A DNA stretch of 64,000 nucleotides from Gemmatimonadaceae bacterium (GCA_011525845.1 WYBP01000001.1:1-64000), one strand, 5' to 3'; positions 8,641-31,719 are shown, counted from the stretch's first letter. The notes: generated from the letters alone by a model not told the origin. Numbers and translations: made by a program.

Positions 8641-11600
8641 GCGCCCCCGAGGTCCCGACCAGCGTGTACCCGGCGCCCGCACGGTCCACGGAGAGCCCGG
8701 CGAACGAGACGAGGCCCGCGATCGCGTTGCGAGTGAGGGTGCCGCTCAGCGTCCCCGCATTCGGGTTCGTGCCGATCGCGACGGTCACCGCGTCGGAGAA
8801 GACGAGACTCCGGTTCCCGAGCGAGTCCAGCACCTGCAGCTCGGGCGCGGGGGTGATCGTCGCGCCCGCCACCACGGTGCTCGGCTGCGTCGTGTACGCG
8901 AGCCGCGTGGCCGGGGCGGCCACGACGCTGAGCACCGGCTGCTGCGTGGCGACGATGCCGTTCACCGTCGCGGTGATCGTGCGCGCTCCGGCGACGGTGG
9001 CCCCGACCGACCCCGTCGCGATGCCGTTCGCGTTGGTGGTCGTGGCGGGCTGGGCGATCGCGTTCCCCGCCGGCGCCATCGCGAGCGTCACGGTGCGCCC
9101 ACGGATCACGTTCCCGAAACCATCGCGCGCCGTGACCGTCACCGTCGCGGGGGTGTCACGCGACGCCGCCACGGTGGTCGGTGCGAGCGCCACGAGCGTC
9201 TGCCCCGCGTTCACCGCGCCCGGGCGTGCCGTCGCGATGAAGCCCACCGGAGCCGCCACACGGGTCGCGCGCGCGGTCTGAGTGCTGTCGGTCGGCGTGA
9301 CGGTCGTGCCGAGGGTCCACGAGGTGGTCGCGATCCCCTGCGCGTTGGTCGTGGAGGTGAGCGGAGCGACCGATCCGCCACCCGTCACCACGCTCCAGGT
9401 GACGAGCTCTCCGGCCACGGGGTTGCTCAACGCATCGCGCACCACCACGGCCAACGGCGTTGCAAGGGTGGCACCGACGGTGTCCGCCTGTGCGTACCCG
9501 TCGTGCACAGCCATCTGCGTCGCGCCGCCGACCGTCGCGCTAGAGGTGAACACCACCGAGGCCGGACCCGTCGAGAGCGTCGCGGCCGCCGTGGTGGTCT
9601 GCGAGCCGGCGCTCGCGCCGAGGGTGCGCACCGTGCTCGCCACGCCGGACGCGTCGGTGACCGAGCTCGTCGGGTTCACGGAACCGCCCCCCGCGACACT
9701 CCAGTTCACCGTCACGCCCGCGACGGGGTTCCCGTTGACGTCGGTGATCCGCGCCTCGAGCGGCGTCGCCAGCGTCGTACCGACGGGGCCCGTCAGGTTG
9801 TCGCCCGAGAAGCGCGTGAGCAGTGCACTCGGCCCGGCGGTGCCCGTCGCGCTGAACGTGACGGGGCTTCCGGTGAGGCCCGTCGCACTGGCGGTGAGCC
9901 CGTTGGCGCCGGCCGTGGCGCCGAGCTGCCAGGAGGTGAGCGCCGAGATCCCGTTGGCGAGGGTCACCACGGGCGCCGTGGGCGCGATCACGCCGCCACC
10001 GCCCGTGACCGCCCAGGTCACCGACACCCCGGCGACCGGGTTGCCGCTCGCGTCGCGCGCGATCACCGAGGGCGGCGTCCCGACCGTCGCGCCCGCGATG
10101 GCGGTCTGTCCGCCTCCCGCCTGGAGCGCGAGCTGTGTCGCCGGGCCCGCCGTGATCGTGATGGTGCCCGATGTGGCGCTCGTGAGCCCGGTCGACGCGA
10201 AGCTGAGCGTGCGCGGGCCGACCGTGCCCGTGATCCGCAGTCCGCTGAAGATCGCGGCACCGGTCGCACTCGTCACCACCGTGGACGTGCCGCCGAGCGT
10301 GCCGCCGCCGGTGGCGATCGCCGCGGTGACCGTCACCCCGGACTGCGCGACGGGATTCCCCGCCCCGTCCTGCAGCTGCACCACGGGCTGCGTCGCGAAC
10401 ACCGCGCCGTTCGCCGCGGTGGACGAGGGCGCGGTGGTGATCCCGATCCGCGCCGCCGTGCCCGCGCCGAGGGTGATCGGGGTGGAGACGAGGCTCGGCA
10501 GGGAGAGCGCGTCGAAGGCGAGCGTGTAGGCGCCCCCCGGTCCGCTGATGGCGAGCCCGGAGAAGGTCGCGACGCCCATCGCGCTCGTGCTCGCCGTCGC
10601 GTTCGCGAGTGTCGCGCCCCCCGGTCCGGTCGCCACTGACGCGGTGACCGTGGTGCCCGCCGTGGTGACCGCGTTGCCGAAGGCGTCCTCGATCACGAGC
10701 ACCGGCTGCTGCGTGAGTGCGATGCCGCTCGCGCCCGTGCTCGACGGCGCGGTGAGGAAGCGCATCGCCGCGGCAGGCGCCGGTGTCACCGCCAGGGTCG
10801 TCAGGCTGTTCCCGGCCGTCAGCCCGGTCGCGCTCGCGACCAGCGTGAGTCCGCTGGCCACGCGCTCCACGCGCACGGCGGGGAAGGAGGCGACGCCCGC
10901 GTCCGCGTTCACGGTGGTCGTCCCGAGCAGCGTGGCGCCCGCGCCGTTCGGCGCGAGCGCGAGCGTCACCGCGCCGGTGAAGGATGTGGCGACGTTCCCG
11001 AGTCCGTCACGCGCCGTGACCTGCACGGTTGGAGCGATCGCAACGCCGGCGACCACCGACGCCGGGATCGTCCCGACGGTGAGCGACTGCGCCGTCGCGG
11101 GGAGCACGTCGAATGGCGCCGTGGTCACGGAGAGCGCGCCCGTGCTCGCCACGAGCGTGTAGCCGACGCCCGACCGGTTGATCGAGAGGTCGGTGAAGGT
11201 CGCCACGCCCTGCACGGCGGTCACCGTCGCCGTCCCGCTCAGCGCGCCGCCGCCGGGGTTCGCGCCGAGCGCCACGGTCACGGCCCCGGTGAAGCTGGTG
11301 AGCGTCGCGCCCGAGGCGTCCTGGGCCGCGATCCGCACGGCGGGCGCGATCGCGGTGCCCGCGGTGGTCGCGGACGGTGCGCCGATGACGCCGAGCCGCG
11401 TGGGGGGGAGCGCCGTGCGGAAGTTCGCGCCGCTGGAGCTGAGGGGAACCCACGCGCTCACGCGCCCGGTCTGGTCCACCGTCCGCGCCTGCCAGCGGTA
11501 GGCCACATCGTCGGTGAGGCCGAGGGTCGAGACGAGGGTCGCGGTCCCCGATGCAACCGGTGCGCTCGATGCGGTCGCGACGTTGGAGAACGCCGTGCCC

Positions 11601-19187: not shown

Positions 19188-19607
19188 TCAGCCACCGTGC
19201 TGCGCGGCCATGAACGCGATCCCGGGAGCGATCGCCCGGTGCCAGGCATCCTCGAGTGCGGGGCCCCACTCGGGGTCGAACTCGCGCACGGTCCGCAACA
19301 GGCTCTCCTCGAAGTGCGCGTACTGGGCGGGGGCGACGTCGAGGTCCTGCTTGTTGTGGCGCGCCGCGATCCGCTCCAGGAGCACCGGGTTGCGGCGCTT
19401 GGCGAAGGTGAAGAGCAGGCCCAGCCCGTGCTGGAGCAGCTTGTTCTGCCGGTCGAAGTCGGTGTGGGCGAACTTCGCCCGCGTCGCCGCGTCCGACTGG
19501 AGCAGCCGCTTGTAGAACGCCTGGAAGAACTGCTCGCTCGCGCAGCGGCGGAGGCTCTCCTCCGCGAGCTGGATCGTTTCGGCGGACAGGACATCGGGCG
19601 AGGCCAC
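19188..19607 (-). CDS. Single-domain globin (flavohaemoglobin/sensor-globin type)
   Basis: Protein of 139 residues from the GTG at 19607, which has AGGAG eight bases upstream; an in-frame GTG at 19613 is only two bases from that site. Globin marks: Tyr32 in FYKRLL (B10), Phe46 in KFAHTD (CD1), Gln54 near E7, and His84 in AARHN (proximal F8), followed by the PAQYAHFEESLL pattern of this globin class. No reductase or signalling domain is attached. The family binds O2 or NO and can act as sensor or scavenger. Zero spacing to the kinase and then to a haem protein suggests a gas or redox input to that operon, which is inference. A 77-residue ORF and a hairpin lie just upstream. Confidence 0.87.
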   Translation of the reverse strand: MASPDVLSAETIQLAEESLRRCASEQFFQAFYKRLLQSDAATRAKFAHTDFDRQNKLLQHGLGLLFTFAKRRNPVLLERIAARHNKQDLDVAPAQYAHFEESLLRTVREFDPEWGPALEDAWHRAIAPGIAFMAAQHGG

Positions 19608-19938: not shown

Positions 19939-20616
19939 TCAGTTGCCGCTGATGCCCAGCGCGCGCTGTACGCGTCGGCCCAGCAGGTGCTTGGCATAGT
20001 AGCCCGTGAGGCGACCCTCCGCGAGCACCGAGGCGCGGTCGATCAGCGCCGCGAGCTCCGCCGACGGGACCAGGTCCATCACGAGGTGCACGCGGTCCAC
20101 CGCCCCCTCGTTCGCGACCTCGTGCGGGAATCGCACATCCACCAGCCAGGTCTCACCCGCCGCGAGCGGCACCCGGTGGTCGTCCACCGTGAATCGGACA
20201 TCAGGATTCGTCACCACCGGCACGTGCAGCCGCACCAGGTCCTTCGCGATCGTGTGCAGCGGGTCCGAGTGCCGGAGGATGCGGCCCCCCGAACGCAGGC
20301 GCATGAGGCGCACCCGGTTCCGCTCCGCCGGGAACCGGTCGAGCACCTCCTGGAAGTACGGACAGAAGCTCAGCGCGGGCGTCGCCGCGAACGCGCCGCC
20401 CCTGCTGGTCTGCTCCCGCAGGTCGCCGCGCGGTGCCCAGAGGGCCACGGATTCCCACGCGCCATCGTGGTACGGACCCGCGTGCACGCTCCACCAGCTC
20501 TCATGCACGCGCGCCAGGTCGGCGGCGAGGCGCGCCGGGTCGAACGTCAGCTCCAGCCGGCGCGCGATCGGGTGACGCCGCAGGCCGTTCCGCAGCGCCT
20601 CACGCAGCAGGGACAT
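19939..20616 (-). CDS. Aspartyl/asparaginyl beta-hydroxylase-like 2OG-Fe(II) oxygenase
   Basis: Protein of 225 residues. The ATG at 20616 is preceded by GGGAGGG; upstream in-frame sequence is Arg/Pro-rich and not protein-like. The Asp_Arg_Hydrox pattern is present: RHSDPLH (iron-binding His with nearby Asp), LHVPVVTNPDVRFTVD, a glycine turn AAGETWLVDVRFPHEVANEG with the distal His, then DRVHLVMDLV with the Arg that binds 2-oxoglutarate. Family members hydroxylate Asp/Asn in proteins or peptides, or small molecules in biosynthetic clusters; the substrate here is unknown. The start overlaps the SDR gene by 17 bases, so it is translationally linked. It lies about 5 kb from the RiPP-like operon at 25-31.7 kb but on the other strand. 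Confidence 0.82.
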   Translation of the reverse strand: MSLLREALRNGLRRHPIARRLELTFDPARLAADLARVHESWWSVHAGPYHDGAWESVALWAPRGDLREQTSRGGAFAATPALSFCPYFQEVLDRFPAERNRVRLMRLRSGGRILRHSDPLHTIAKDLVRLHVPVVTNPDVRFTVDDHRVPLAAGETWLVDVRFPHEVANEGAVDRVHLVMDLVPSAELAALIDRASVLAEGRLTGYYAKHLLGRRVQRALGISGN

Positions 20617-21628
20617 GCTGCCCTCCCGCTCGCGCGCCGTGCGCCGGCGCGGACGCGGCACCGGCGATCCAGCGAAGGTCGGAGCGTGCGAACTCAGCGA
20701 GGCCCTCGCGCAGGGAGCGCGGCGGAGCGAAGTCCAGACCACCACGCCGCACCGACGTGAAGCGTGAGTCGCTGCAGTACCGCAGGACCTGAGCGGCCGA
20801 TCGAGCCGTGGCTCCCACGACCTCCGTCGCGCGCGTCCCTCGCAGGAGAGCGGCGATCACCGCGACCGCGCGGCTCCGCCGTGGGAACCCCGTCGGCAAC
20901 CCGAGCGCCTCCCGGATCGTGGTCGCCACCTCTCCCAGCGTGAGATCGGGCCCGTCGGCATAGTTGAAGACGTGCACGCCCGGGCCGAGCGCAGCCGCGT
21001 GCGCGTGGAAGGCCGCGACGTTCTCCACATGGGCGAAGGACTTCCGGTTGTCCCCGCTCCCGATCATCACGAACCCCGGGGCGGCCAGCTCGTGGAAGAG
21101 GCCGAGCATCCGACCCCGCACACCGGGGCCGAACACGATCGTCGGCCGGATGATGACGAGACTGCGCGTCGCATCCTCTCGAGCCCACCCCTCGAGGATG
21201 CGCTCCGCCTCCAGCTTGGTGCGCCCGTACGGCGAGCGCGGACGGCAGGGGGAGTCCTCGGTCCGCACGCCCCGATGCTGTCCGTAGACTGCGACCGTGC
21301 TGGTGAAGACGATCCGGCGGAGGCCCGCGCGCCGCGCGGCGCTCGCGACGGCGCGTGCGCCGCCGACGTTCGTCTCCTCGAACCGCTCCACCGGACGGGG
21401 TTCCGTCCCATGCTCCGCGGCGAGGAGGAAGAGCGTCTCCGCCCCCGCGAGCGCGCGCGCCACCGACGCCTCATCGCGCACGTCGGCGTGCTGCCACGCG
21501 TGCGGCGCCACGGTGCACGGCTGGCGGTCCGCGATCCGCACCGGCAGCCCTGCCGCGAGCAGGGCGCGCGCCAGCGCGCTGCCGATGAATCCCGATCCCC
21601 CCAGCAGGACGCGCGGTCGGTCGCTCAC
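20600..21628 (-). CDS. NAD-dependent epimerase/dehydratase (extended SDR)
   Basis: Protein of 342 residues with the extended short-chain dehydrogenase fold. Nucleotide-binding GGSGFIGS lies near residue 10, acidic IADRQ ends strand 2, DVRDEASVARAL sits at strand 3, Ser in FTSTVAVYG and YGRTK supply the Ser-Tyr-Lys catalytic set, and RPTIVFGPG follows. Such enzymes act on nucleotide sugars or on sterol-like 3-beta-hydroxy compounds. With a sterol-desaturase-like partner upstream, a lipid substrate is possible but unproven. The ATG overlaps the upstream stop as ATGA (21625-21628), and the end overlaps the oxygenase start by 17 bases, so this is the middle gene of a tight operon. Confidence 0.88.
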   Translation of the reverse strand: MSDRPRVLLGGSGFIGSALARALLAAGLPVRIADRQPCTVAPHAWQHADVRDEASVARALAGAETLFLLAAEHGTEPRPVERFEETNVGGARAVASAARRAGLRRIVFTSTVAVYGQHRGVRTEDSPCRPRSPYGRTKLEAERILEGWAREDATRSLVIIRPTIVFGPGVRGRMLGLFHELAAPGFVMIGSGDNRKSFAHVENVAAFHAHAAALGPGVHVFNYADGPDLTLGEVATTIREALGLPTGFPRRSRAVAVIAALLRGTRATEVVGATARSAAQVLRYCSDSRFTSVRRGGLDFAPPRSLREGLAEFARSDLRWIAGAASAPAHGARAGGQHVPAA

Positions 21629-22488
21629 TCCCGCTCCGTCGCGGCGCGCACGTTCGCGCCCGCGCTCTCGATGACCGCATCGCGACGGAACGGGGAGACG
21701 AGGTGCGACAGCCAGCGCTCACGCACGCGCCATCCCTCCACACCCGTCCGCTCGGGCCGCCGCTCGGCGTCCACGGCGGTGCCGAAGAGGAAGTCCCAGA
21801 ACGAGAAGAGGCCGCCGAAGTTCGTGTCCCGCACCGCGGGGTCGGTCGAATGGTGGGTCGCGTGGAACACCGGCGAGACGAGGATCTTCCGCGCCCAGCC
21901 GAAGCGCCACGGCAGGTTGGCGTGGTGGGTCGCGTCGATGAAGGCGAGCAGGAAGGAGTAGGGGAGCCACGAGACGGCCGGCGTCCCCAGCAGCAGGAGC
22001 GGGATGAAGGTCACCGTGTGCGCGAAGGCCTGGTCGATCGGGTGGTTCCGGTAGCCCGTCGCGAAGGTCAGCTGCTCCTGGCTGTGGTGCACGCGATGGA
22101 AGCGCCACCAGATGCGGGAGTGCTGCGCCCGGTGGATCCAGTAGCTGAGGAAGTCGAAGATCAGCAGGTAGGCGGGGATCCCGATCCAGAGCGGCGCGCT
22201 GCTGAGCAGCTCGACCCGCATCCAGGGGAACGCCTCGCGCGTGGCCACCGAGAGCGGCGTGTAGAGCATCACGATGTACACCACGAACACGAGGCGGTAG
22301 AGCACATCGGTGAGGAAGCGCCGGGAGGCGTACTGCTCCAGGCTCACGCCCGCGCGGCGCTCGAAGACCATCAGGATCGCCATGCACGCCGCGCCGATGC
22401 CGATCGCGTAGCGCAGTCCGCTCCCGAGCTCCGTGATCGGAAGCCAGGTCGCGAGCCACTCGAGCAGGGCGCGATTCAGGTCGTCCAT
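21625..22488 (-). CDS. Sterol desaturase/fatty acid hydroxylase family membrane oxygenase
   Basis: Protein of 287 residues. Several membrane helices (about 27-45, 62-80, 98-115, 150-170) carry the three histidine clusters of the family: HRAQH and HRVHH (about 118-135), and HATHH (about 210), with HATHHSTDP near the end. These bind a di-iron centre used to hydroxylate or desaturate lipids. First gene of the operon with SDR, 2OG oxygenase and a small ORF; divergent from the formyltransferase at 22604. TATGTT on the minus strand (22547-22542) is 53 bases upstream and is a likely -10. Family assignment is firm; the substrate is not known. Confidence 0.92.
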   Translation of the reverse strand: MDDLNRALLEWLATWLPITELGSGLRYAIGIGAACMAILMVFERRAGVSLEQYASRRFLTDVLYRLVFVVYIVMLYTPLSVATREAFPWMRVELLSSAPLWIGIPAYLLIFDFLSYWIHRAQHSRIWWRFHRVHHSQEQLTFATGYRNHPIDQAFAHTVTFIPLLLLGTPAVSWLPYSFLLAFIDATHHANLPWRFGWARKILVSPVFHATHHSTDPAVRDTNFGGLFSFWDFLFGTAVDAERRPERTGVEGWRVRERWLSHLVSPFRRDAVIESAGANVRAATERE

Positions 22489-22541
22489 GTCGGCGGTCGG
22501 CGCAGGCGGGAGTGCGATTGCGAGGGTGAACGGCGACCCCT

Positions 22542-22547
22542 AACATA
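22542..22547 (-). promoter_or_regulatory. -10-like TATGTT for desaturase-SDR-oxygenase operon
   Basis: Identical to the hexamer at 25094-25099 and 13777-13782. A possible -35, TTGTGT, lies about 20 bases further upstream, which is long spacing. Confidence 0.4.
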
Positions 22548-22603
22548 GGCCACCGTTCCCGGGAGCGACACAACGTGCCTGTGGTCGATGACGTGGTCGT
22601 GCG

Positions 22604-23533
22604 TTGAGGGTCGTGCTCTTCGCCTCCGGCGGTGCGATCCCCGCAGAGGCCGTGCGTGCCCTGCGCGGCACGTGCGATCTCGTGGGGGTCGTGCGGCCGC
22701 GCGCATCGGTTGACGCGCGCGGCCCCGCCTGGCTCGCGCGCCGGGTGTGGCATGGCGCGCGAGCCCTCGCGCGACGCTCGAAGCAGGCAGGACCCGAGAC
22801 GCGGGATCCGCTCGACTCCGTCATCGCGGAGTCGGCGCTCCCGGTCTGGCCGATGCGCGGGCCGAACGATCCGGCGCTCGAGGCACGACTCCGCGCCGCC
22901 GCCGTCGACGTCGCCTGCATCGCGACCTTCCCCTGGCGACTCGGCGCCTCGCTCCTCGGCGCCGCACGCGCCGGCACGCTCAACGTCCACACCTCGCTCC
23001 TCCCGCGGCACCGGGGTCCGACGCCGCTCTTCTGGACCTACCACGCCGACGATCGCGAGGCCGGCGTCACCATCCATCGCGCCGACTCCAGGATGGACGC
23101 GGGTCCGATCGTCGCGCAGGCACGCCTCCCCCTTCCGCGAGGCCATCCGGTGCGCACCCTCCACGCCGAGCTCGCGGAGGTGGGCGCGTCGCTCCTGCGT
23201 GACGCGGTGGTCTCGATGGCGGGTGGGACGGCGACGCTGCAGGCGCAGGACGAGCGCCTCGCGACGCAGGCGCCGCGCGTGCAGTCCGGTGAGCGGATGC
23301 TGGGTGAGGACTGGGGTGCCGAGCGGACCTGGCACTTCCTCGCGGGCCTCGCCGGGATGTACCGCGAGCCACTGTGGTGCGACGGGCGCGAGGTGCGGTA
23401 CCGCGAAGTGCCCGGCTACACGGGCGGTTCCCCGCTCGCCGTGCCAGGCGTCGTGACGCGTGCGACCACGGGACCCGGGTGGACGCTCTGGTGCCGGGAC
23501 GGCGGCGTGACGCTCCTGCCGGACGACGCGTGA
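22604..23533 (+). CDS. Formyltransferase-family protein
   Basis: Protein of 309 residues. The formyl-transferase N domain (about 1-190) begins RVVLFASGG and contains LNVHTSLLPRHRGPTP, the family signature with catalytic Asn and His, then HRADSRMDAGPI with the catalytic Asp. The C-terminal third (WHFLAGLAGMYREP and a short beta region) resembles the C-terminal part of Met-tRNA formyltransferase-like enzymes but is shorter. Relatives transfer formyl from 10-formyltetrahydrofolate to Met-tRNA, UDP-amino-sugars or amines. Context does not suggest translation genes, so a small-molecule, sugar or peptide amine is more likely. The start is the TTG at 22604, chosen because it precedes strand 1 exactly; no clear ribosome site. 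Its stop overlaps the next GTG. Confidence 0.83.
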   Translation: MRVVLFASGGAIPAEAVRALRGTCDLVGVVRPRASVDARGPAWLARRVWHGARALARRSKQAGPETRDPLDSVIAESALPVWPMRGPNDPALEARLRAAAVDVACIATFPWRLGASLLGAARAGTLNVHTSLLPRHRGPTPLFWTYHADDREAGVTIHRADSRMDAGPIVAQARLPLPRGHPVRTLHAELAEVGASLLRDAVVSMAGGTATLQAQDERLATQAPRVQSGERMLGEDWGAERTWHFLAGLAGMYREPLWCDGREVRYREVPGYTGGSPLAVPGVVTRATTGPGWTLWCRDGGVTLLPDDA

Positions 23534-24180
23534 TCGGCGAGCTCGTCGCGCTCACCGGATGGATCGTCCTCGTGGCGACCGGCGCGTGGATCGCACTCCG
23601 CGAGCGCGGCACGTCGGGCACGGGCGGCCCCTCCGCGGCCGTGCGCCGTTTCATCGCGGTGGCGCTCGCGATGTCGCTGCTGGCCGGGTTCTCGCAGCGC
23701 GAGCTCTGGCCGTTCGCGACCTGGGCGCTGATGCCCGCCCGCTCACCCGCCGACGTCCGGATCCGCGCGCTGGTCTGCGTCGACTCCGCCGACCGTCCGT
23801 TCGCGGTGGACCACCGCGCCTGGGCGCCGCTCACGGAGGAGGAGCTGCTCTCCTGGACCCGCGGGCCCTTCACGCGCCTGGAAGCGGCCGCGCAGCGGAC
23901 GGCCATCGTCTCGCTCACGGAACGCGTGGAGGCGGGCCGGGTGCGCGCACGCGGCGGGCTCTCCCCCGCGGCACACGCCTCCCCACTCGGGCGCTTCGCC
24001 GCCTCGTCGCACCTGCTTCACCCGCTGCGGTGGACCACGCCAGAGCGCACACCCGCCACGCCCTGCGTCGCCCTGCGCCTCGTGGAGCGACGGTGGAACG
24101 TGGACTCCGCAGCCGCCGGGCGTGGCGTGGTGATCGAGTCGACGCTCTGGCAGCTCCCGCCGCATGAGGAGGAACCGTGA
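23530..24180 (+). CDS. Membrane-anchored protein of unknown function
   Basis: The GTG at 23530 overlaps the formyltransferase TGA as GTGA, giving 216 residues. Two N-terminal hydrophobic helices (about 2-22 and 36-58, around LVALTGWIVLVATGAWI and RRFIAVALAMSLLAGF) are followed by a soluble region with RIRALVCVDSADRPFAVDHRAW and a charged, Arg-rich remainder. No motif I recognise. The end overlaps the HTTM gene start (GTGA at 24177-24180). The same pairing, a small membrane protein beside an HTTM protein, suggests the two form one complex; inference only. Confidence 0.7.
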   Translation: MIGELVALTGWIVLVATGAWIALRERGTSGTGGPSAAVRRFIAVALAMSLLAGFSQRELWPFATWALMPARSPADVRIRALVCVDSADRPFAVDHRAWAPLTEEELLSWTRGPFTRLEAAAQRTAIVSLTERVEAGRVRARGGLSPAAHASPLGRFAASSHLLHPLRWTTPERTPATPCVALRLVERRWNVDSAAAGRGVVIESTLWQLPPHEEEP

Positions 24181-25073
24181 CCGGATCCCTGCGGGCTCGC
24201 TGGGAGGCGTACTGGTTCGAGCCGGGGCACGCCCTCCAACTCGCCGTCGTTCGCGTGCTCGCCGCCGGGACTGCGCTCTGGGTGCTCGTCTCGCGGGACC
24301 GCGCCGGCGTGAGCGGACTCGGGAGCGAGTTCTGGTCCGGCGTCTCGGCCATCACGCGCTGGCGCTTCCTCCTCTTCCCCGGGCACGAGACGCTCGAGCG
24401 CGCGCTCACCCTGCTGGCGGCGGTCCTCCTGGTCGCCACGCTCCTCGGCATCCGGCCCCGTGTCACCGCGCTCGCCTCGGCGCTCCTGCTCTACCACCTC
24501 GCGCCGCTCGAGAGCATCGTCTGGACGCCGGCACCGTACGGACGCGGACTCACGCTCCCCACACTCGCCCTCCTCCTCTGCGGGATCGCGCCGAGCGCCG
24601 ACGCGCTCGCGCCGGGCGCGCGGACGACCGCGCCTTCGTGGCGATATGGTTGGCCCGTGCGACTGCTGCAGGTGTGGCTTGTGAGCGTGTACTTCTTCTC
24701 CGGCGTCGCGAAGTTGCGTGCGTCCGGACTCGCCTGGGCGAGCGGCGAGAACCTCACGCACTGGCTCCGGCTGGCCACGCAGAACGAGCTCGTCAACGTG
24801 CATGTCGCCGTGGGGGGGTGGATCGCCGACCAGCCGCTCGCCGCCTCCGGCGCGGGGGCCCTGACGCTCGCCTTCGAGTTCGGGTGCGTCGTCGCGCTCT
24901 TCTCGCGCCGGGCACGCCCCTGGTTCGCGCTGGTTGCCATCGGGTTCCACGTCGGCATCTATCTCGCGATGAACATCACCTTCAACTCCTGGCCGCTCCT
25001 CCTGGCCTTCGTCGACTGGCCCGCGGCGCGTGACCGCTGGCGGGGCTGGCGGGGGGGCGCCGTGCTTGCTTGA
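24177..25073 (+). CDS. HTTM-domain membrane protein (vitamin-K carboxylase-like)
   Basis: Protein of 298 residues with about seven membrane helices. The layout matches HTTM (horizontally transferred transmembrane) proteins: an N-terminal RARWEAYWFEP, a first helix starting LAVVRVLAAGTALWV, a mid-region LLYHLAPLESIVWTPAPYG, then RLLQVWLVSVYFFSGVAKL, which is highly typical of the family, and FHVGIYLAMNITFNSWPLLLAF near the end. Eukaryotic relatives carboxylate glutamate in peptides using vitamin K; most bacterial ones are uncharacterised. It ends at 25073, and the -35 of the RiPP-like operon promoter overlaps its stop codon, so the two transcription units abut. Confidence 0.87.
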   Translation: MTGSLRARWEAYWFEPGHALQLAVVRVLAAGTALWVLVSRDRAGVSGLGSEFWSGVSAITRWRFLLFPGHETLERALTLLAAVLLVATLLGIRPRVTALASALLLYHLAPLESIVWTPAPYGRGLTLPTLALLLCGIAPSADALAPGARTTAPSWRYGWPVRLLQVWLVSVYFFSGVAKLRASGLAWASGENLTHWLRLATQNELVNVHVAVGGWIADQPLAASGAGALTLAFEFGCVVALFSRRARPWFALVAIGFHVGIYLAMNITFNSWPLLLAFVDWPAARDRWRGWRGGAVLA

Positions 25074-25099
25074 CGCTCCGCGCGCGACGGCCGTATGTT
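25070..25099 (+). promoter_or_regulatory. Sigma70-like promoter of the RiPP-like operon
   Basis: TTGACG (25070-25075) and TATGTT (25094-25099) are separated by 18 bases, the best -35/-10 pair I see in the window. Transcription should start near 25106, about 30 bases before the PqqD-like GTG. The -35 overlaps the stop of the HTTM gene. Confidence 0.6.
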
Positions 25100-25137
25100 C
25101 TGCGCGAACGGGTACCCTGCAGCGACCGGAGGTCGCC

Positions 25138-25410
25138 GTGTCAGCCGTCTATCGCCGGGCCTCGACCGTGGAGGCCGCGCCGATGCAGAGCGAGACGATC
25201 CTCTTCAACCCCGCCACGAAGGGGTTCTGCGTGCTGAACGCCTCCGCCGCGCTCGTGTGGAACAGCCTCGAGTCGCCGCAGTCGGCGTCCGCGCTCGCCG
25301 ACCAGCTGGTCCGGGCCTTCTCCGGCGTCTCGCTGGAGCAGGCGCAGAGCGATGTGCAGTCCGTGCTCGACGAGTTCCGTTCGCTGTCCCTCGTAGAGTT
25401 GCAGTCCTGA
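25138..25410 (+). CDS. PqqD-family peptide-binding protein (RRE-like)
   Basis: Protein of 90 residues. The GTG at 25138 is chosen because GGAGG lies five bases upstream; an earlier in-frame start at 25030 would lie inside the HTTM gene. The PqqD winged-helix pattern is clear: ETILFNPATKGFCVLNASAALVWNSLE, then SASALADQLVRAF and a helix VQSVLDEFRSLSLVEL. PqqD proteins and the related RiPP recognition elements hold the leader of a ribosomal precursor peptide for tailoring enzymes. A short peptide ORF (25460) and an HPr-kinase-like gene (25692) follow, the same company as in 'HPr-rel-A' systems and in paeninodin-type lasso clusters. First gene of a long plus-strand operon. Confidence 0.87.
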   Translation: MSAVYRRASTVEAAPMQSETILFNPATKGFCVLNASAALVWNSLESPQSASALADQLVRAFSGVSLEQAQSDVQSVLDEFRSLSLVELQS

Positions 25411-25459
25411 ATCCTGGATCGTCCCGCTACCGACACACCCGCATCCGGAGAGTCGACCG

Positions 25460-25585
25460 ATGAACGAGAACGAGAAGGACGAGCGCCCCGCCTACGTGCC
25501 GCCGAAGGTCACCGTGATGAACGAGGCCGAGGTGCTGAAGTCGTTCCAGATCACGAGCGCGGCCAGCACCTGGTGGGGGATGTAG
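25460..25585 (+). CDS. Candidate RiPP precursor peptide, 41 aa, C-terminal STWWGM
   Basis: ATG at 25460 with GGAG nine bases upstream; stop TAG at 25583-25585; 49 bases after the PqqD-like stop. The first ten residues are highly charged (MNENEKDERP). Then comes AYVPPKVTVMNEAEVLKSFQ, which looks like a leader: YVPP fits the YxxP leader motif known to be bound by RRE proteins in lasso peptide systems. The end, ITSAASTWWGM, has no charge and carries Ser, Thr and two Trp, suitable as a core. No Cys, so not a thioether or lanthionine peptide. A strong hairpin follows at once. That it is translated is likely; that it is modified is inferred from its neighbours. I recognise no described peptide family. 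Confidence 0.72.
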   Translation: MNENEKDERPAYVPPKVTVMNEAEVLKSFQITSAASTWWGM

Positions 25586-25634
25586 CGCCCCGTCACGCGC
25601 CGGCGCCGCAGGTGGCGCCTCGGAGCATCGAGTC

Positions 25635-25678
25635 ACAGCGACCGTGCCCTCGCCCCAGGCGACCGGCACGGTCGCTGT
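25635..25678 (+). terminator. Strong hairpin (attenuator) between precursor and HPr-kinase gene
   Basis: Perfect 14-bp arms, ACAGCGACCGTGCC (25635-25648) and its complement (25665-25678), and inside them a second stem TCGCC/GGCGA (650-654 with 658-662) around a 3-base loop. No U-tract follows. It begins 49 bases after the peptide stop and ends 13 bases before the kinase ATG, which itself has no clear ribosome site. In RiPP operons a partial terminator here keeps precursor mRNA above enzyme mRNA; this one may do so or may stabilise the short transcript. Confidence 0.7.
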
Positions 25679-25691
25679 CTGCTTCCCCCGC

Positions 25692-26696
25692 ATGAGTGCC
25701 CTTCGCTGGTACCGGCTGGGCGAGGGAACGCTCGGCGTCGCGAGTGCCGACGCGGCGCTGGCCTCGCGGTTCGAGGAGATCTACGGCGGGTGTGCCGTTG
25801 GCGAGCCCGGCGAAGGGCCGGTCGTGGTCTGTCGCGTGGGTCCGGCCGCGGGCGGCGAGGTGTGCGCCACGTTCGAGGATCCCGAGCCGCTGGATGTTCG
25901 AAGTTTCGTCGGGACGCTCTTCCCGGACCGTGGGTACGTACCGGTCGACGGGAGCGGTGATGCGAGCGGCCTCGCGAGCGGCGACGCGAACGGGATACAC
26001 CTGCCAGGCTCGGATGCATCCGCTCGCATCGACGGGAACGACGTCGTCGCGCCGGCCGACGCGCCCTGGCAGCCCCTGGTGGCGAACCTCGCGGTGAATC
26101 GCCTGCTGCGGCTCCAGCGCGACGTGCTCTTCCTGCACGCGGCATCGGTCCGGATCGGCGGGAAGGGCGTCCTCGCCTGCGGCCCGAAGCGGAGCGGGAA
26201 GACGACCCTCGCACTCGCCCTCGCGGCGCGGGGCCACGGACTCCTCGGCGACGAACTCGCGGGCGTGCACCTCCGCTCGCGGGAGCTGATCCCCATCCGT
26301 CGCTCGGTCGCCACGCGGGAGGGTCCACGCTCGGCCGCGGCCGATGCGCTGCTGGCCGCACACGGCGGGGTGCCCGAGCGATTCCCCGACGGCGAACTCC
26401 GGCGTCGCTATCCGGCGCAGTCGCTGGGCCCCGATGCATCGGCGACTCGCACGCCTTTGACGGCCCTTCTGATCCTCCGTAGTATGGTCCCGGCGACGCG
26501 GATCGAGGCCGCACAGGTGGGACCCGCACTGCTCGGCAAGATGACGCCGCTCGCAGCCTCACTCTGGGAACGGCCGCCGGCACTCGTCGCGGTGCGGCTG
26601 GTCGGGCTCCTCTCCTCGGTCCGCGTGTTCGAAGTCGACTCGGGACCGCCCGACGAGGTCGCGGACCGCATCGAGGCTCTCATGGAGGGTGGATGA
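25692..26696 (+). CDS. HPr kinase-related protein (HprK-rel-A type)
   Basis: Protein of 334 residues from the ATG at 25692; an earlier in-frame GTG at 25644 lies inside the hairpin and is rejected. The HprK-like core has FLHAASV (His149, like the catalytic His of HPr kinase), Walker A GPKRSGKTTL (164-173), and LGDELA (186-191) where HPr kinase has its acidic pair. The N-terminal 130 residues are divergent and contain a repetitive Asp/Ser/Gly stretch (about 88-115). Related proteins phosphorylate a serine, and in paeninodin-type clusters a homologue modifies the lasso peptide. Here the peptide STWW core or a carrier is a possible target. The stop overlaps the next ATG (ATGA). Confidence 0.85.
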   Translation: MSALRWYRLGEGTLGVASADAALASRFEEIYGGCAVGEPGEGPVVVCRVGPAAGGEVCATFEDPEPLDVRSFVGTLFPDRGYVPVDGSGDASGLASGDANGIHLPGSDASARIDGNDVVAPADAPWQPLVANLAVNRLLRLQRDVLFLHAASVRIGGKGVLACGPKRSGKTTLALALAARGHGLLGDELAGVHLRSRELIPIRRSVATREGPRSAAADALLAAHGGVPERFPDGELRRRYPAQSLGPDASATRTPLTALLILRSMVPATRIEAAQVGPALLGKMTPLAASLWERPPALVAVRLVGLLSSVRVFEVDSGPPDEVADRIEALMEGG

Positions 26697-27253
26697 CGCT
26701 GAACGTACGGGAGCGCGCCGACACGATCGGCACGCTGCGACACATCTCCGTCTTCGCGATGGAGACACTCGCCCGCTGGGTGCCGACCACGCCGGAGCTC
26801 GAGGCGAAGATCGTGCTCGGGCGCCACATCTGGGAGTTCGCGCAGCACGCCGACGGCCTTGGCCGCCGCACCCACGAGCTGCGCGCGGCGATGCACTACT
26901 CCCCTGCGCCGACCGATCCGTACGTGGCGATCCTCGAGGAGTGGCGCGCGCTCACCGCGACCGCCGACCGGATCGGCACGCTCTACGACGCGATCATCCC
27001 CGACCTCGACGCGCGCTACGCGGCCTACCTCGCCGCCACCGACGTCTTCCTCGACGAACCCAGCGTCCGCATCGTGGAGCGGAACCGCGCCGACCTCCCG
27101 CGCATGATCGAGGAGTCGCGCGCTCTCCGGAAGGAGCGCCCCGAGCTGGCGGCGAGCCCCGCCGCGGCGGCGATGGCGCGCCGACTCGCCGCCTGCACGG
27201 AGTACGTCTCCTTCCGCGCGCCGGTCGGCAGCACGGCGGAGCGGCTCGCATGA
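26693..27253 (+). CDS. Divergent ferritin-like four-helix protein
   Basis: Protein of 186 residues, almost all helical. Candidate metal residues lie on the helices: Glu24 (AMETLARW), His45, Glu48 and His52 (RHIWEFAQHADGLG), His61, and Glu129 (RIVERN). The pattern recalls the ferritin-like fold but lacks the second Glu-x2-His of the two downstream paralogues, so it may be an inactive or differently loaded partner. It starts in ATGA with the kinase stop and ends in ATGA with the next ferritin-like gene. I recognise no named family. Its position suggests a subunit of a three-part di-iron complex. Confidence 0.7.
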   Translation: MTLNVRERADTIGTLRHISVFAMETLARWVPTTPELEAKIVLGRHIWEFAQHADGLGRRTHELRAAMHYSPAPTDPYVAILEEWRALTATADRIGTLYDAIIPDLDARYAAYLAATDVFLDEPSVRIVERNRADLPRMIEESRALRKERPELAASPAAAAMARRLAACTEYVSFRAPVGSTAERLA

Positions 27254-28065
27254 TCGCCACCGCCGCTCCCACGAGCACGAAGGTGGTCCGCGGCGTCACG
27301 CTCCACGGGGAGCCCGCGCGCGAGGCGATCTTCAACGTCGTCTCGACCGACGCGGAGATGGCGGAATGGCCCGGCATGTCCGACGAGTCGCGGCGCGAGC
27401 GGCTCCACCGCCACATGAACAACGAGTGCGTGGCGATGGAGATCGCCTCGCAGGCCGTGGCCGACTTCCCCGACGCGCCCTGGGACCTGCGCATGTCGAT
27501 CGCGCGCCAGGCGGCGGACGAGTCGCGCCACGTCGAGATCCTCTACCGGCGCCTCCTGGAGCTCGGCGGCCGGAAGGGGGAGTTCCCGGTCTCCAATTAC
27601 GAGTGGAGCGTGACGGGGATGATCGACAACCTCCCCGGGCGACTCGCGATCGAGAACCGGACCTTCGAGGCGGGACTCATCGACATCCTCGGCCAGCTCA
27701 AGACCACCTGGCGCGAGGCGGGGGACGACCGCACCGCGGACGCGCTCGAGGCGATCCTCGCGGACGAGATCACCCACGTGCGATTCGCCAACCGCTGGAT
27801 CAAGCTGCTCACCGAGCGCGACCCGCGCGTGCTGCTCCGCGTCGCGCAGGCCATCCGCTACCTGCGCGCGGTGAACGCAGCGCTCGCCCCGGAGGTCGGG
27901 TCCGTCAACGCGGTCGGCGTGACGCTCACGGAGGAGAAGGTGCAGCCCCCCGCGGTGAACGTGAGTGGTCGGCTCGAGGCCGGATTCACCGAGGAGGAGG
28001 TGCTGGAGGTGCTCCGGCAGGCGGGGTTCCGCTCCATCATCCCCGAGCAGCTGCGCACCACATGA
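27250..28065 (+). CDS. DUF455-like ferritin-fold di-iron protein (first)
   Basis: Protein of 271 residues with a complete set of di-iron ligands in four helices: Glu59 (NNECVAMEIA), Glu91-x2-His94 (DESRHVE), Glu140 (NRTFEAGLI) and Glu173-x2-His176 (DEITHVRFANRW). This is the 4-Glu/2-His pattern of ferritin-like oxidases. Residues 75-85 (DAPWDLRMSIARQ) are shared almost exactly with the next gene. The last 70 residues, with VNVSGRLEAGFTEEEVLEVLRQAG, lie beyond the bundle and could bind a partner. DUF455-type proteins include tRNA- and small-molecule-modifying oxygenases, but most are unknown. Placed between two ferritin-like genes and linked by ATGA at both ends. A role in peptide oxidation is inference. 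Confidence 0.85.
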   Translation: MIATAAPTSTKVVRGVTLHGEPAREAIFNVVSTDAEMAEWPGMSDESRRERLHRHMNNECVAMEIASQAVADFPDAPWDLRMSIARQAADESRHVEILYRRLLELGGRKGEFPVSNYEWSVTGMIDNLPGRLAIENRTFEAGLIDILGQLKTTWREAGDDRTADALEAILADEITHVRFANRWIKLLTERDPRVLLRVAQAIRYLRAVNAALAPEVGSVNAVGVTLTEEKVQPPAVNVSGRLEAGFTEEEVLEVLRQAGFRSIIPEQLRTT

Positions 28066-28829
28066 GCGCCCCGCTCCATCCGCGCCTCGACCCCGCCTGC
28101 TTCGGTGAGCCGGCGGCGCGCGACGAGCGATTCACGGTGGTCGACATCTGGCACGACTGCGTCAACCTGCCCGACGGGCATCCCGAGAAGGCGCAGGAGT
28201 TCTTCCATCGGCAGATGAACGAGGAGGCGGCGGTGCTCGAGAACGCCGCGCGCAGCCTCTGGGAGTTCCCCGATGCCGACTGGGACCTCCGCATGTGGCT
28301 GGCCCGCCAGTGCGCGGATGAGGCCCGGCACACGGAGAACTACCGCCGCCTCTTCGTGAGCCGTGGCGGGCGGCTCGGCCAGTATCCGGTGCTCGGGTTC
28401 CAGTACCGGATCCTGGGGAAGGTGCACACCCTCATCGGACGGCTCGCGGTGCAGAACCGCACGTTCGAGGCGGACGGGCTCGACGCGGTGACGCACGCGA
28501 TCACCGAGGCACGCGAGGCGGGTGACGACGAGTTGGCCGCCGTCTACGACGCCCAGCAGGCGGACGAGATCGTGCACATCCGCTTCGCGAACGAGTGGAT
28601 CAAGCGCGAGGCGGCGCGCAACCCGCGTGCGCTGATCGCGATGGGGCAGGCGCTGGCGCTCGCCGCGCGCGGGTTCCAGCAGACCTTCGACCGGGAAGGG
28701 TCGCGCGTCTCGAAGTACGGCGTCGCCGAGGACCTGCGGACGCAGGCCGGGTTCAGCCCGGAGGAGATCCAGGACTTCGTCGTCATCACCGAGCACCGGC
28801 GGGCGATCGCGCGGCAGGACGCGGGATGA
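28062..28829 (+). CDS. DUF455-like ferritin-fold di-iron protein (second)
   Basis: Protein of 255 residues, paralogue of the preceding gene. Ligands: Glu54 or Glu55 (QMNEEAAVLE), Glu87-x2-His90 (DEARHTEN), Glu136 (NRTFEADGLD) and Glu169-x2-His172 (DEIVHIRFANEW). Shared blocks with its neighbour are DADWDLRMWLARQ and RLAVQNRTFEA. It begins with its own region containing IWHDCVNLPDGHPEKAQEF and ends in a short tail of two helices. Two intact copies in tandem suggest a heteromeric oxygenase or two successive oxidations. Start and stop both overlap neighbours as ATGA. No electron-transfer partner (ferredoxin or reductase) is present in the operon. Confidence 0.85.
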   Translation: MSAPLHPRLDPACFGEPAARDERFTVVDIWHDCVNLPDGHPEKAQEFFHRQMNEEAAVLENAARSLWEFPDADWDLRMWLARQCADEARHTENYRRLFVSRGGRLGQYPVLGFQYRILGKVHTLIGRLAVQNRTFEADGLDAVTHAITEAREAGDDELAAVYDAQQADEIVHIRFANEWIKREAARNPRALIAMGQALALAARGFQQTFDREGSRVSKYGVAEDLRTQAGFSPEEIQDFVVITEHRRAIARQDAG

Positions 28830-29866
28830 GCGAGGCCGTGCTCGCGCGCGGCTGGATCCAGTCCCCGGCCTTCGACCTGGCGGCCTTCATCCTCGTGCCG
28901 CTCTCGAGCCTCATCGTGCTCGGTGCGGTGCTCGAAGTGCCGTACGGCATGCACCTCGTGGTCGGCGCGACCTACCTCGTCGCGATCCCCCACTACCTCT
29001 CCTCGCTGACCTTCTTCCTCGGCGACGACAACCTCTCGTACTATCGCTCGCGGCGCACCGCGTTCTTTGTCGGACCGGTCGTGATCGTCGCGCTCGTGGC
29101 GATCCTCCGTTTGGTCGGCCTCACCGACATCGTGCTGAACACGATGTTCCTCTGGAACATCTGGCACGTCTCGCTCCAGAGCGCGGGCATCCTCTCCATC
29201 TACCGGCGGCTCAACGGCGGACCGCAGGAGGAACGCCCGCTCGCCCACCGCACCATCTTCCTGCTGAACGCGACGCTCGCGCTCTGGTTCGTGGATCGCT
29301 ACCCGCCACTGCACGGCTGGCTGGTGGCCATCCACGAGGGCGTGCCGATGGCGCTGCGGTACACGCTGCTCGTGCTCGGCGCGACGACCGCGCTGCGCTA
29401 TGCGCGGCTCGTCGCCCGCCGCGACCGGCCGATGCCCTTCCCCGAGAAGGCGTTCCTGGTCTCGAGTCTCGTCCTCTTCACGCCCTACCTCTGGGTGCGG
29501 GACTCGAACCTCGCGACCTTCGGGATGCTGATGGGCCACTTCATCCAGTACCTCTCGATCGTCTGGCTGCTCCACCGCCGGAAGTACGCGCGCGCGGAAG
29601 GGTCGGCACGCCAGCGCACGCTGGGGATGATCAGTGCGCGGCCGGCGCTCCTCTTCGCGACCATCGCGGGCTCGGGGCTCGCGTTCTACGCCGCGAGCGA
29701 GCTCTCCGCGCTCTTCGGCGTGGCGATGGCGTACGTGATCCTCTGGAACTCGATCACGCTGGTGCACTTCTACCTCGACGGGCTCATCTGGGCGTTCAAG
29801 CAGCCATTCGTGCGGCAATCGATCGGCGCCTACCTGACACCCGCCGCCCGCGTCGCCATCCGATGA
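28826..29866 (+). CDS. Polytopic membrane protein with conserved-looking intramembrane His residues
   Basis: Protein of 346 residues from the ATG at 28826 (ATGA overlap). About eight to nine hydrophobic helices. Histidines sit in helices or at their ends: AIPHYLSSLTF, WNIWHVSLQSAG, MGHFIQYLSIVWLLH and LVHFYLDGLIW. Such spacing recalls membrane metal oxygenases, for example the Brp/Blh carotenoid-cleaving type, but I cannot assign a family. In this operon it may be an oxidase, an exporter or a membrane platform for the ferritin-like proteins. It has none of the Walker or ABC motifs expected of a peptide-exporting ATPase. The stop overlaps the S26 ATG. Confidence 0.72.
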   Translation: MSEAVLARGWIQSPAFDLAAFILVPLSSLIVLGAVLEVPYGMHLVVGATYLVAIPHYLSSLTFFLGDDNLSYYRSRRTAFFVGPVVIVALVAILRLVGLTDIVLNTMFLWNIWHVSLQSAGILSIYRRLNGGPQEERPLAHRTIFLLNATLALWFVDRYPPLHGWLVAIHEGVPMALRYTLLVLGATTALRYARLVARRDRPMPFPEKAFLVSSLVLFTPYLWVRDSNLATFGMLMGHFIQYLSIVWLLHRRKYARAEGSARQRTLGMISARPALLFATIAGSGLAFYAASELSALFGVAMAYVILWNSITLVHFYLDGLIWAFKQPFVRQSIGAYLTPAARVAIR

Positions 29867-30441
29867 CGGGCGAGGACCGGCCGCCCTCCGCGACACTGGT
29901 CGGCTGGGTGAGCGAGCGCCTGCGCGGGTCCGGCAGACTGGTCGAGTGCGAGGTGCGGGGTGCGAGCATGGGAAGCGGCCTGCCGGACGGATCGATGGTC
30001 CGCGTGCGTTGCGACGGCGCTCATGATGCTCCGCTGGGTACGGTGGTCGCGCTCGACCTTGGCGGGGCGCTCACCATCCATCGGCTCGTGCACCACGGAC
30101 GCTCCCGGCGCGCGCTCGGATGGGTGGTGACCGAGGGGGACGCGAACCTCACCTGCGATGCGCCCGTGCCGGCCGAGGCACTCCTGGGGCGTGTGGACGC
30201 CGTGCGCGCCGAGCGTGGAGACTGGATCCCGGTGGACGTCGCGGTGCCGGCGCCAGCCACACGCCCACGGATCACGGCGCTCGTCCGGCGGGTCGTCTGC
30301 CGTGCGACCGAGTTCCATCCACGTGCCGCACGTGCGATCAAGGGTGCCGTCGTGCTCGCGATGACGCCGCTCGTCTGGCTGCGCCCCTACCCGGAAAGCG
30401 CAGTGCGCCACGCCTCGGTCGCGCATCGCCCGCGGAGCTGA
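29863..30441 (+). CDS. S24/S26-family signal-peptidase-like protein
   Basis: Protein of 192 residues. Family signature VRGASMGSGLPDGSMV gives nucleophile Ser35. The second catalytic position is in LTIHRLVHH (His73), so this looks like the Ser-His type (SipW/ER type), not the Ser-Lys bacterial type. TEGDAN (90-95) matches the GDxN box. No clear N-terminal membrane helix; a weakly hydrophobic stretch near 163-175 (AVVLAMTPLVWLR) could anchor it. In 'HPr-rel-A' type loci and some RiPP clusters an S26-like protein accompanies PqqD, and leader removal is the likely role here, by inference. It is followed after three bases by the nucleotidyltransferase. Confidence 0.8.
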   Translation: MTGEDRPPSATLVGWVSERLRGSGRLVECEVRGASMGSGLPDGSMVRVRCDGAHDAPLGTVVALDLGGALTIHRLVHHGRSRRALGWVVTEGDANLTCDAPVPAEALLGRVDAVRAERGDWIPVDVAVPAPATRPRITALVRRVVCRATEFHPRAARAIKGAVVLAMTPLVWLRPYPESAVRHASVAHRPRS

Positions 30442-30444
30442 GGC

Positions 30445-31719
30445 GTGCGGACCGCCCCGGATGCAGAGACCCGCGCGAGGCGGGCGGAGGTCCTCGCCCT
30501 GCTCGGTGCGACGGGCCCGTTCCCGCTTCCGGCCGGAGCGTCGGCGGACGCGTGGGATGCGCGCCTGGAGACGCTCGGCGCGCCGCTGCACCCCTGGCTG
30601 GCGCATCGACTCGCCGCGCTCGGCATGGAGCAGGACCTCCCGGCGGGGACCCGCGCTCGCCTGCAGGCGTCGCTGCAGGCGAGCGCGGTGGCGGAGCTCC
30701 GCCGTCGGTCGGCGCTGATCGAGATCGTCGAGGCGTTCGGCGCCGGGGGGATCCCATTCGTGCTCCTCAAGGGGATGGCACTCGCACACACGCACTACCC
30801 CGCGCCGCAACTGCGCACGATGTCGGACATCGACATCTGGCTCCAGCCCGAACGCTGCGCGGACGCCGTCGCCCTGCTCGGACGATCGGGTTGGCGGATC
30901 CCCGGGCGCTACGCCACGCACGTGCGCGCGCCGGCGGACGCGCTCCTGCTGGAACGTCCCGATGCGCCATTCGTGCTCGAGGTGCACACCTGGCCTCCAT
31001 CGCTCGGGCGCGACTCCACGGCGAGCGAGCGCATCTGGGCTCGCTGCGACCACGCGACCATCGCCGGTCGACAGGTGCGCGTCTGCTCCACGCGCGACCT
31101 CGTCGCGCACCTGTGCCTCCACCTCACCAGGAAGCACGGATGCAGCGACGGGCTGCGGGGATTGGTCGACCTGGCCTGCGTCGCGCGCCACATCCCCGAC
31201 GACCCGACGTGGCGGGCCCTCGGCGCATGGCACCGCGACGATGGCGTGGCGCTCTGGACATCCTTCGCGCTCGCGATGGCCCGGGACCTCGTCGGCGCCC
31301 CGGTCCCGGCGTCCTACTTCGCCGCGGCGGGTGCGCCCCCCGTCCCCGAGACGCTCCGGTCGCTCGCGCTCGAGCAGCTCTGGGACCACGAACCGACGAC
31401 CATGCGCGGCGTGGAGGGGATGCTCGCCGGCGAGCTCGGGGGCCCGCTGCACGCGCTGCGCAACTACGTCCGGGACTTCTACGCGGCACCCGGCGCCGAT
31501 GGCCGGCGTTGGTGGCGCGCCCTCCCGTCGCGGCTGCGCTTCGACCTGACCGTCCGGATCCCGCGCTACTGGCGCGCGCTGCGGCGCGGCGAGCTGCGCC
31601 GCACACGCCTGTCGCGGCGCGCCACGATGATCCAGGACCGGCACGCGCTCATCGATGGGCTCAAGGCCCTCGCGCCCACGCTCAGCGAGGGACCACCCGC
31701 TCCCAGTGCTCCCAGATGA
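30445..31719 (+). CDS. Nucleotidyltransferase-family protein (NTP_transf_5-like)
   Basis: Protein of 424 residues; GTG at 30445, three bases after the S26 stop. Core pattern of the family: PFVLLKGMALAHTHYPAPQLRTMSDIDI, with LLKG at 107-110 and the metal-binding Asp128 and Asp130 (MSDID), then EVHTW (acidic third residue) around residue 175 and HLCLHLTRKHG further on. The C-terminal half is helical. Homologues are regular members of clusters with PqqD and HPr-kinase-like genes, including kinase-containing lasso peptide clusters. They would transfer a nucleotide or nucleotide-derived group; the acceptor is unknown. Its last 38 bases overlap the 3' end of the convergent DUF2779 gene. Confidence 0.83.
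   Translation: MRTAPDAETRARRAEVLALLGATGPFPLPAGASADAWDARLETLGAPLHPWLAHRLAALGMEQDLPAGTRARLQASLQASAVAELRRRSALIEIVEAFGAGGIPFVLLKGMALAHTHYPAPQLRTMSDIDIWLQPERCADAVALLGRSGWRIPGRYATHVRAPADALLLERPDAPFVLEVHTWPPSLGRDSTASERIWARCDHATIAGRQVRVCSTRDLVAHLCLHLTRKHGCSDGLRGLVDLACVARHIPDDPTWRALGAWHRDDGVALWTSFALAMARDLVGAPVPASYFAAAGAPPVPETLRSLALEQLWDHEPTTMRGVEGMLAGELGGPLHALRNYVRDFYAAPGADGRRWWRALPSRLRFDLTVRIPRYWRALRRGELRRTRLSRRATMIQDRHALIDGLKALAPTLSEGPPAPSAPR

Follow-up and report, generated by a model that had tools for sequence, protein, structure and literature searches.

In the biosynthesis of pyrroloquinoline quinone (PQQ) and mycofactocin, the ribosomal peptides PqqA and MftA, respectively, serve as scaffolds, and radical SAM enzymes act on Glu-Tyr or Val-Tyr target residues. 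The MNIO enzymes belong to DUF692, the fold of which differs from the helical bundle of DUF455, and the known members of the CoaC/LanD family decarboxylate a C-terminal Cys. YxxP is a recognised leader motif (PMC12710340), and the paeninodin-type kinases target a C-terminal Ser (PMC8498205). AetD and SktA are haem-oxygenase-like di-iron oxidases (HDO) that act on free Trp derivatives in an O2-dependent manner (PMC13108848). The system described here lies in a window of 64,000 nucleotides—the whole stretch of DNA analysed—from a Gemmatimonadaceae bacterium (GCA_011525845.1, WYBP01000001.1:1-64000), which is the start of contig C15 in a genome of 3.58 Mb. It features a PqqD-type protein, a 41-residue peptide ending in WWGM, an HPr-kinase-like protein, three ferritin-like proteins, a membrane protein, a Ser/His peptidase, and a nucleotidyltransferase. 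We consider it likely to be an operon for the biosynthesis of a modified ribosomal peptide from a class so far undescribed, in which PqqD would present the leader and di-iron proteins would oxidise the Trp pair.

With the kinase-containing lasso clusters of paeninodin and pseudomycoidin, the operon shares the YxxP leader, a discrete PqqD-type B1 protein, an HPr-kinase homologue, and an NTP_transf_5 protein. In contrast to them, it has neither cyclase nor B2 protease at the locus, the core mostly lacks an acceptor Asp/Glu, and there is no C-terminal Ser; a ferritin-like trio and a Sec11-type peptidase are found instead. PQQ and mycofactocin systems likewise feature leader binding of the PqqD/MftB type, conserved aromatic target residues, and usually a single precursor, but here ferritin-like proteins take the place of the radical SAM enzymes and the target would be Trp-Trp. 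As in ribosomally synthesized and post-translationally modified peptides (RiPPs) of the MNIO type, non-haem iron enzymes would oxidise a leader-presented peptide, although the enzyme families are unrelated. An O2-dependent di-iron oxidation of Trp, as proposed here, resembles the reactions of AetD and SktA, whereas the fold is ferritin-like rather than HDO and the proposed substrate is a peptide rather than a free amino acid. Two related loci with Cys-ending peptides carry a flavoprotein homologous to the LanD/EpiD peptidyl-Cys decarboxylases; unlike in LanD/EpiD systems, it is accessory, confined to these two lineages, and absent from the window.

In the precursor, (Y/F)xxP is followed by an acidic stretch, then by (F/I)Q and finally by WW, with the Pro, the Gln, and both Trp residues invariant in the final alignment. 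WW occurs in all 21 peptide copies of the 19 complete loci, L053 and L055 having two copies each. Ser, Thr, or Cys directly precedes it in 17 of these loci, and it is followed by 0 to about 9 residues of variable sequence. The arrangement is that of a RiPP: a short conserved precursor with a leader motif beside a recognition element. Two independent signs identify the 41-residue open reading frame (ORF), as judged by sequence, as a real RiPP-type precursor. First, PqqD and precursor are naturally fused into one protein in Ramlibacter monticola (L059, 8559–8990). Second, a LanD/CoaC-like flavoprotein is encoded in just two loci, L062 (4577–5152) and L092 (8635–9135), with a mutual identity of 53%, and the only Cys-ending peptides (...WWMAGC and ...GCWWNTC, respectively) belong to the same two; such an overlap (two of 19 loci on each side) has a chance of about 1 in 171, for a pattern spotted after the fact.

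In total, 21 independent loci were found, and 19 of them carry pqqD, the peptide, ferritin-like proteins 1 to 3, and the S24/S26 peptidase; two of the 19 are split across contigs (L034 with L093 in G067, and L036 with L037 in G092). Their hosts are Gemmatimonadota, Acidobacteriota, and Burkholderiales, bacteria of soil and groundwater. The association holds in both directions. Every locus found in searches with ferritin-like proteins 2 and 3 has the peptide, save L063 and in part L064. Conversely, a search with the peptide profile only, covering 399 Burkholderiales and 396 Acidobacteriota genomes, yielded four new strong matches (E ≤ 1.7e-9; G557, G845, G870, and G829), all of them adjoined by pqqD and the full ferritin trio. 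Among 326 Gemmatimonadota genomes, five have the peptide; all five carry the trio and were already among the finds of the ferritin searches. The profile has no matches outside the cassette in the 17 genomes that carry the peptide or a relic of it and gives one match per genome, or two where two copies exist; the Gemmatimonadaceae genome has one. A fifth, weak match from the peptide-only search (L101 in G993, E=1.6e-4) lacks both ferritin genes and WW and was discarded as spurious. Hence, the peptide that an earlier note, made from the sequence of the window alone, had singled out is real and conserved, with its Y/FxxP leader. That note would have given way had the peptide not been kept beside pqqD and the ferritin-like genes; it is kept there in 19 loci. 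By gene content, the minimal cassette comprises pqqD, the peptide, ferritin-like proteins 1 to 3, and the Sec11-type Ser/His peptidase, but not the HPr-kinase-like gene, which L092 lacks. With these six genes on a 4.8-Mb contig, L092 is the best system for reconstitution.

Ferritin-like proteins 2 and 3 belong to DUF455 and feature the complete di-iron ligand set E, ExxH, E, ExxH, which is invariant in all aligned members (E59, E91xxH94, E140, and E173xxH176 in the former; E55, E87xxH90, E136, and E169xxH172 in the latter). They form two separate lineages, both retained in each cassette, and are candidate di-iron oxidases with predicted iron binding and O2 activation. The Ramlibacter locus has an additional third DUF455 copy beside its PqqD–precursor fusion. 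Ferritin-like protein 1 is modelled as a helical bundle (predicted local distance difference test, pLDDT, of 92) that resembles ferritin-like folds with template modelling scores of about 0.5 to 0.64; the fold search gave no match below E=0.001, and there is no Pfam match. In two-domain DUF455-like proteins, the N-half is its homologue. Of the three ferritin-fold proteins in the earlier note, 2 and 3 hold up by their DUF455 matches, and 1 has a predicted ferritin-like fold. Searches of PDB sequences returned weak bacterioferritin-like matches and, in addition, Crov588 (6nyr), the weak match of which to the DUF455 profile (E=2e-7) is unexplained. The weak ferritin matches L039 to L048 were rejected as related loci, being single two-domain proteins in ordinary gene surroundings without a precursor; they make up an uncharacterised family of about 430 to 460 residues with an N-half like ferritin-like protein 1 and a C-half like DUF455.

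The chemical steps, all of which we infer, would run as follows. PqqD would bind the YxxP-type leader and present the C-terminal part of the precursor to the ferritin-like trio, in which 2 and 3 would be O2-dependent di-iron enzymes and 1 a partner or regulatory subunit. Because WW is invariant, it is the favoured and best candidate target of the di-iron proteins; its oxidation could be a hydroxylation or an oxidative cross-link, possibly involving the preceding Ser, Thr, or Cys. The Sec11-type Ser/His peptidase would afterwards cleave off the leader. Where present, the HPr-kinase-like and NTP_transf_5 proteins might phosphorylate a core Ser/Thr and attach another group there, for which pseudomycoidin offers an analogy (PMC8498205), and further lineage-specific enzymes might add more decoration. 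A bolder proposal, tentative and on the whole doubtful, is a new RiPP class defined by DUF455 di-iron proteins that would form an oxidative cross-link within WW or from Trp to the adjacent Ser, Thr, or Cys; it would be the first case of ferritin-like enzymes maturing ribosomal peptides.

Several points weigh against an oxidised peptide as the product. Ferritin-like protein 1 lacks both ExxH ligand motifs and, hence, the canonical di-iron set. In the open-licence literature, DUF455 proteins have neither an established metal content nor a reported enzyme activity. Two of the 19 loci have no Ser, Thr, or Cys before WW; L064, at a contig end, has a leader but no WW; and L063 is a decayed, frameshifted remnant of ferritin-like proteins 1 and 2. 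Among the gene families that the loci share, none was recognised as a conserved exporter or immunity gene, and the modification itself is a predicted one. The metagenome-assembled genome with L063 carries the label Bordetella parapertussis, which is doubtful. From the peptide class proposed in the earlier note, the RiPP-type operon with a real precursor, PqqD, and constant di-iron proteins remains; one of its three ferritin-fold proteins lacks the canonical ligand set. The operon is a probable new RiPP class rather than a categorically new kind of system, since RiPP logic is already known and the modification is putative. The open-licence literature searched holds no link of DUF455 or ferritin-like proteins to RiPP biosynthesis. 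The cassette is compact and testable and pairs the domain of unknown function DUF455 with a defined peptide as substrate. Should the peptide prove to be oxidised, a ferritin-like family with no enzyme activity reported in the open-licence literature would gain a chemistry, and RiPP mining keyed to cyclases, radical SAM, YcaO, or MNIO enzymes would have overlooked a class.

The alternative that fares best, although unlikely, is that a small cofactor or metallophore is built on the peptide as its scaffold—an oxidised Trp-Trp fragment being excised and used in the producing cell. The near-invariance of WW across phyla, the mostly single-copy precursor, the presence of PqqD, and the absence of a conserved exporter from the shared families would all fit such a role. 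The residues after WW, however, differ in number and sequence, and many lineage-specific tailoring genes, the LanD-like one that goes with C-terminal Cys among them, point to a product that retains the C-terminal region.

That the ferritin-like proteins store iron or defend against oxidative stress, and merely share a transcript with a PqqD peptide system to which they have no relation, is improbable. Ferritins have this fold too, and the distant two-domain relatives sit among ordinary genes; yet the association of peptide and trio is strict, two-way, and spans phyla, the minimal locus loses the kinase and retains the trio, and the two paralogues are always kept.

The HPr-kinase-like gene is present in 18 of the 19 loci and is, as judged by gene content, accessory, because L092 does without it and has peptide and trio intact. 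This same locus makes it equally improbable that the central modification comes from the kinase, yielding a phosphopeptide with the ferritin-like proteins as late tailoring, despite its near-constant occurrence and the Ser/Thr close to WW in most peptides. The Walker A motif GxxxxGK(T/S) is found in all aligned members and the acidic motif in all but L057. The PF07475 and TIGR04352 matches are both under the curated cut-offs, and the locus does not qualify as an HPr-rel-A system (TIGR04352/TIGR04353), with 40.6 bits versus 200 for the kinase and 21.3 versus 35 for PqqD. Homology places the start of the ORF probably at ATG 25692, 3' of the hairpin, rather than at GTG 25644. An action of the kinase on Ser or Thr, also suggested at first, is less supported, given its absence from L092 and a window peptide without the C-terminal Ser of paeninodin-type substrates. 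All 14 aligned sequences of the Ser/His peptidase keep the motifs that mark Sec11/SipW-type enzymes, namely GxSM (Ser), HR (His), and GD, and this protein is the probable, predicted processing protease. The membrane protein described as His-rich does have four invariant His residues but belongs to no known family, and its poor fold model (pLDDT 66) gave nothing usable in a fold search. Its homologues in the relatives L005 and L006 were set aside, as they sit in unrelated loci.

By its gene content, the operon is not a lasso peptide operon, despite its PqqD-type B1 protein and YxxP leader, because cyclase, B2 protease, and acceptor residue are missing. As the earlier note had said of macrocyclase and protease, no homologue of the asparagine-synthase-like cyclase lies within the window, and no B2 transglutaminase-like protease appears in the Pfam scan of the operon and upstream cluster proteins; in addition, 15 of 17 aligned peptides, including that of the window, have no Asp/Glu after FQ. 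Two lasso-like clusters of PqqD, asparagine synthase, HprK, and NTP_transf_5 exist elsewhere in this genome (L009 and L010; contigs C3 and C23 of G000), the former with the precursor candidate YRAPALRALGNAADLTRVVSMIGNMDGGMGNGGMSRTG. That one of them supplies a cyclase in trans is very improbable, even with the lasso-typical leader, PqqD, HPr-kinase, and NTP_transf_5 at the locus, as nearly all cores lack the acceptor. Moreover, about 12 related loci have asparagine synthases nearby, but most of these enzymes keep the catalytic Cys2 of AsnB, in contrast to the lasso cyclase found in this genome, and they were rejected as lasso cyclases.

Pfam and TIGR matches and a check of the sequence bear out the genes, order, and coordinates first assigned, including promoter, hairpin, PqqD, S26-type peptidase, and nucleotidyltransferase (Table 1), and the ATGA junctions at 26693, 27250, 28062, 28826, and 29863 are all read in the sequence. 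The cluster start at 25070 has to be moved: the cluster probably spans about 19939 to 31719, because other loci have homologues of the upstream genes close to the cassette.

Table 1. Features of the peptide cluster in the window
Feature	Position	Strand	Evidence
Asp/Asn beta-hydroxylase family protein, probable cluster member	19939–20616	−	PF05118 E=1.5e-18; adjoins pqqD in L033 and L099
NAD-dependent epimerase, probable cluster member	20600–21628	−	PF01370; L033 homologue co-directional with cassette
Fatty-acid/sterol hydroxylase family protein	21625–22488	−	PF04116 E=1.6e-29; homologue in about 9 loci
Formyltransferase family protein	22613–23533	+	PF00551 E=3e-23; homologue in about 12 loci
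Small protein paired with HTTM	23530–24180	+	adjoins HTTM wherever found
HTTM membrane protein (gamma-carboxylase-like domain)	24177–25073	+	PF05090 E=7e-11; homologue near cassette in about 9 loci
Sigma-70-like promoter TTGACG-N18-TATGTT, 5' of pqqD	25070–25099	+	consensus scan: 1 found, 0.0 expected from shuffles
PqqD family RiPP recognition element	25138–25410	+	PF05402 E=1.3e-12; in 19 of 19 complete loci
Precursor peptide, 41 residues, MNENEKDERPAYVPPKVTVMNEAEVLKSFQITSAASTWWGM	25460–25585	+	kept beside cassette in 19 loci
Strong hairpin in precursor/enzyme gap	about 25637–25677	+	stretch z=-4.1
HPr-kinase-like protein	25692–26696	+	TIGR04352 E=1.6e-10, PF07475 E=1.6e-4; longest ORF from 25644
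Ferritin-like protein 1	26693–27253	+	fold model pLDDT 92, ferritin-like matches; no ExxH motifs
Ferritin-like protein 2 (DUF455), candidate di-iron oxidase	27250–28065	+	PF04305 E=2e-30
Ferritin-like protein 3 (DUF455), candidate di-iron oxidase	28062–28829	+	PF04305 E=9e-19
Multi-pass membrane protein, four invariant His	28826–29866	+	conserved in about 10 loci; no Pfam match
S24/S26-type (Sec11/SipW-like) Ser/His peptidase	29863–30441	+	PF00717 E=5e-5, TIGR02228 E=6e-4
NTP_transf_5 nucleotidyltransferase, accessory tailoring	30445–31719	+	PF14907 E=1.2e-42; homologue in about 13 loci

About half of the loci have a similar hairpin 3' of the peptide, some with a T run. The hairpin of the window is a possible attenuator, and a hairpin in this position could boost precursor relative to enzyme levels. 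A globin-like protein (19188–19607) adjoins the upstream end of the cluster. Farther upstream, a repetitive ORF of 2373 residues (2160–9281) is possibly antisense to a repeat protein on the opposite strand.

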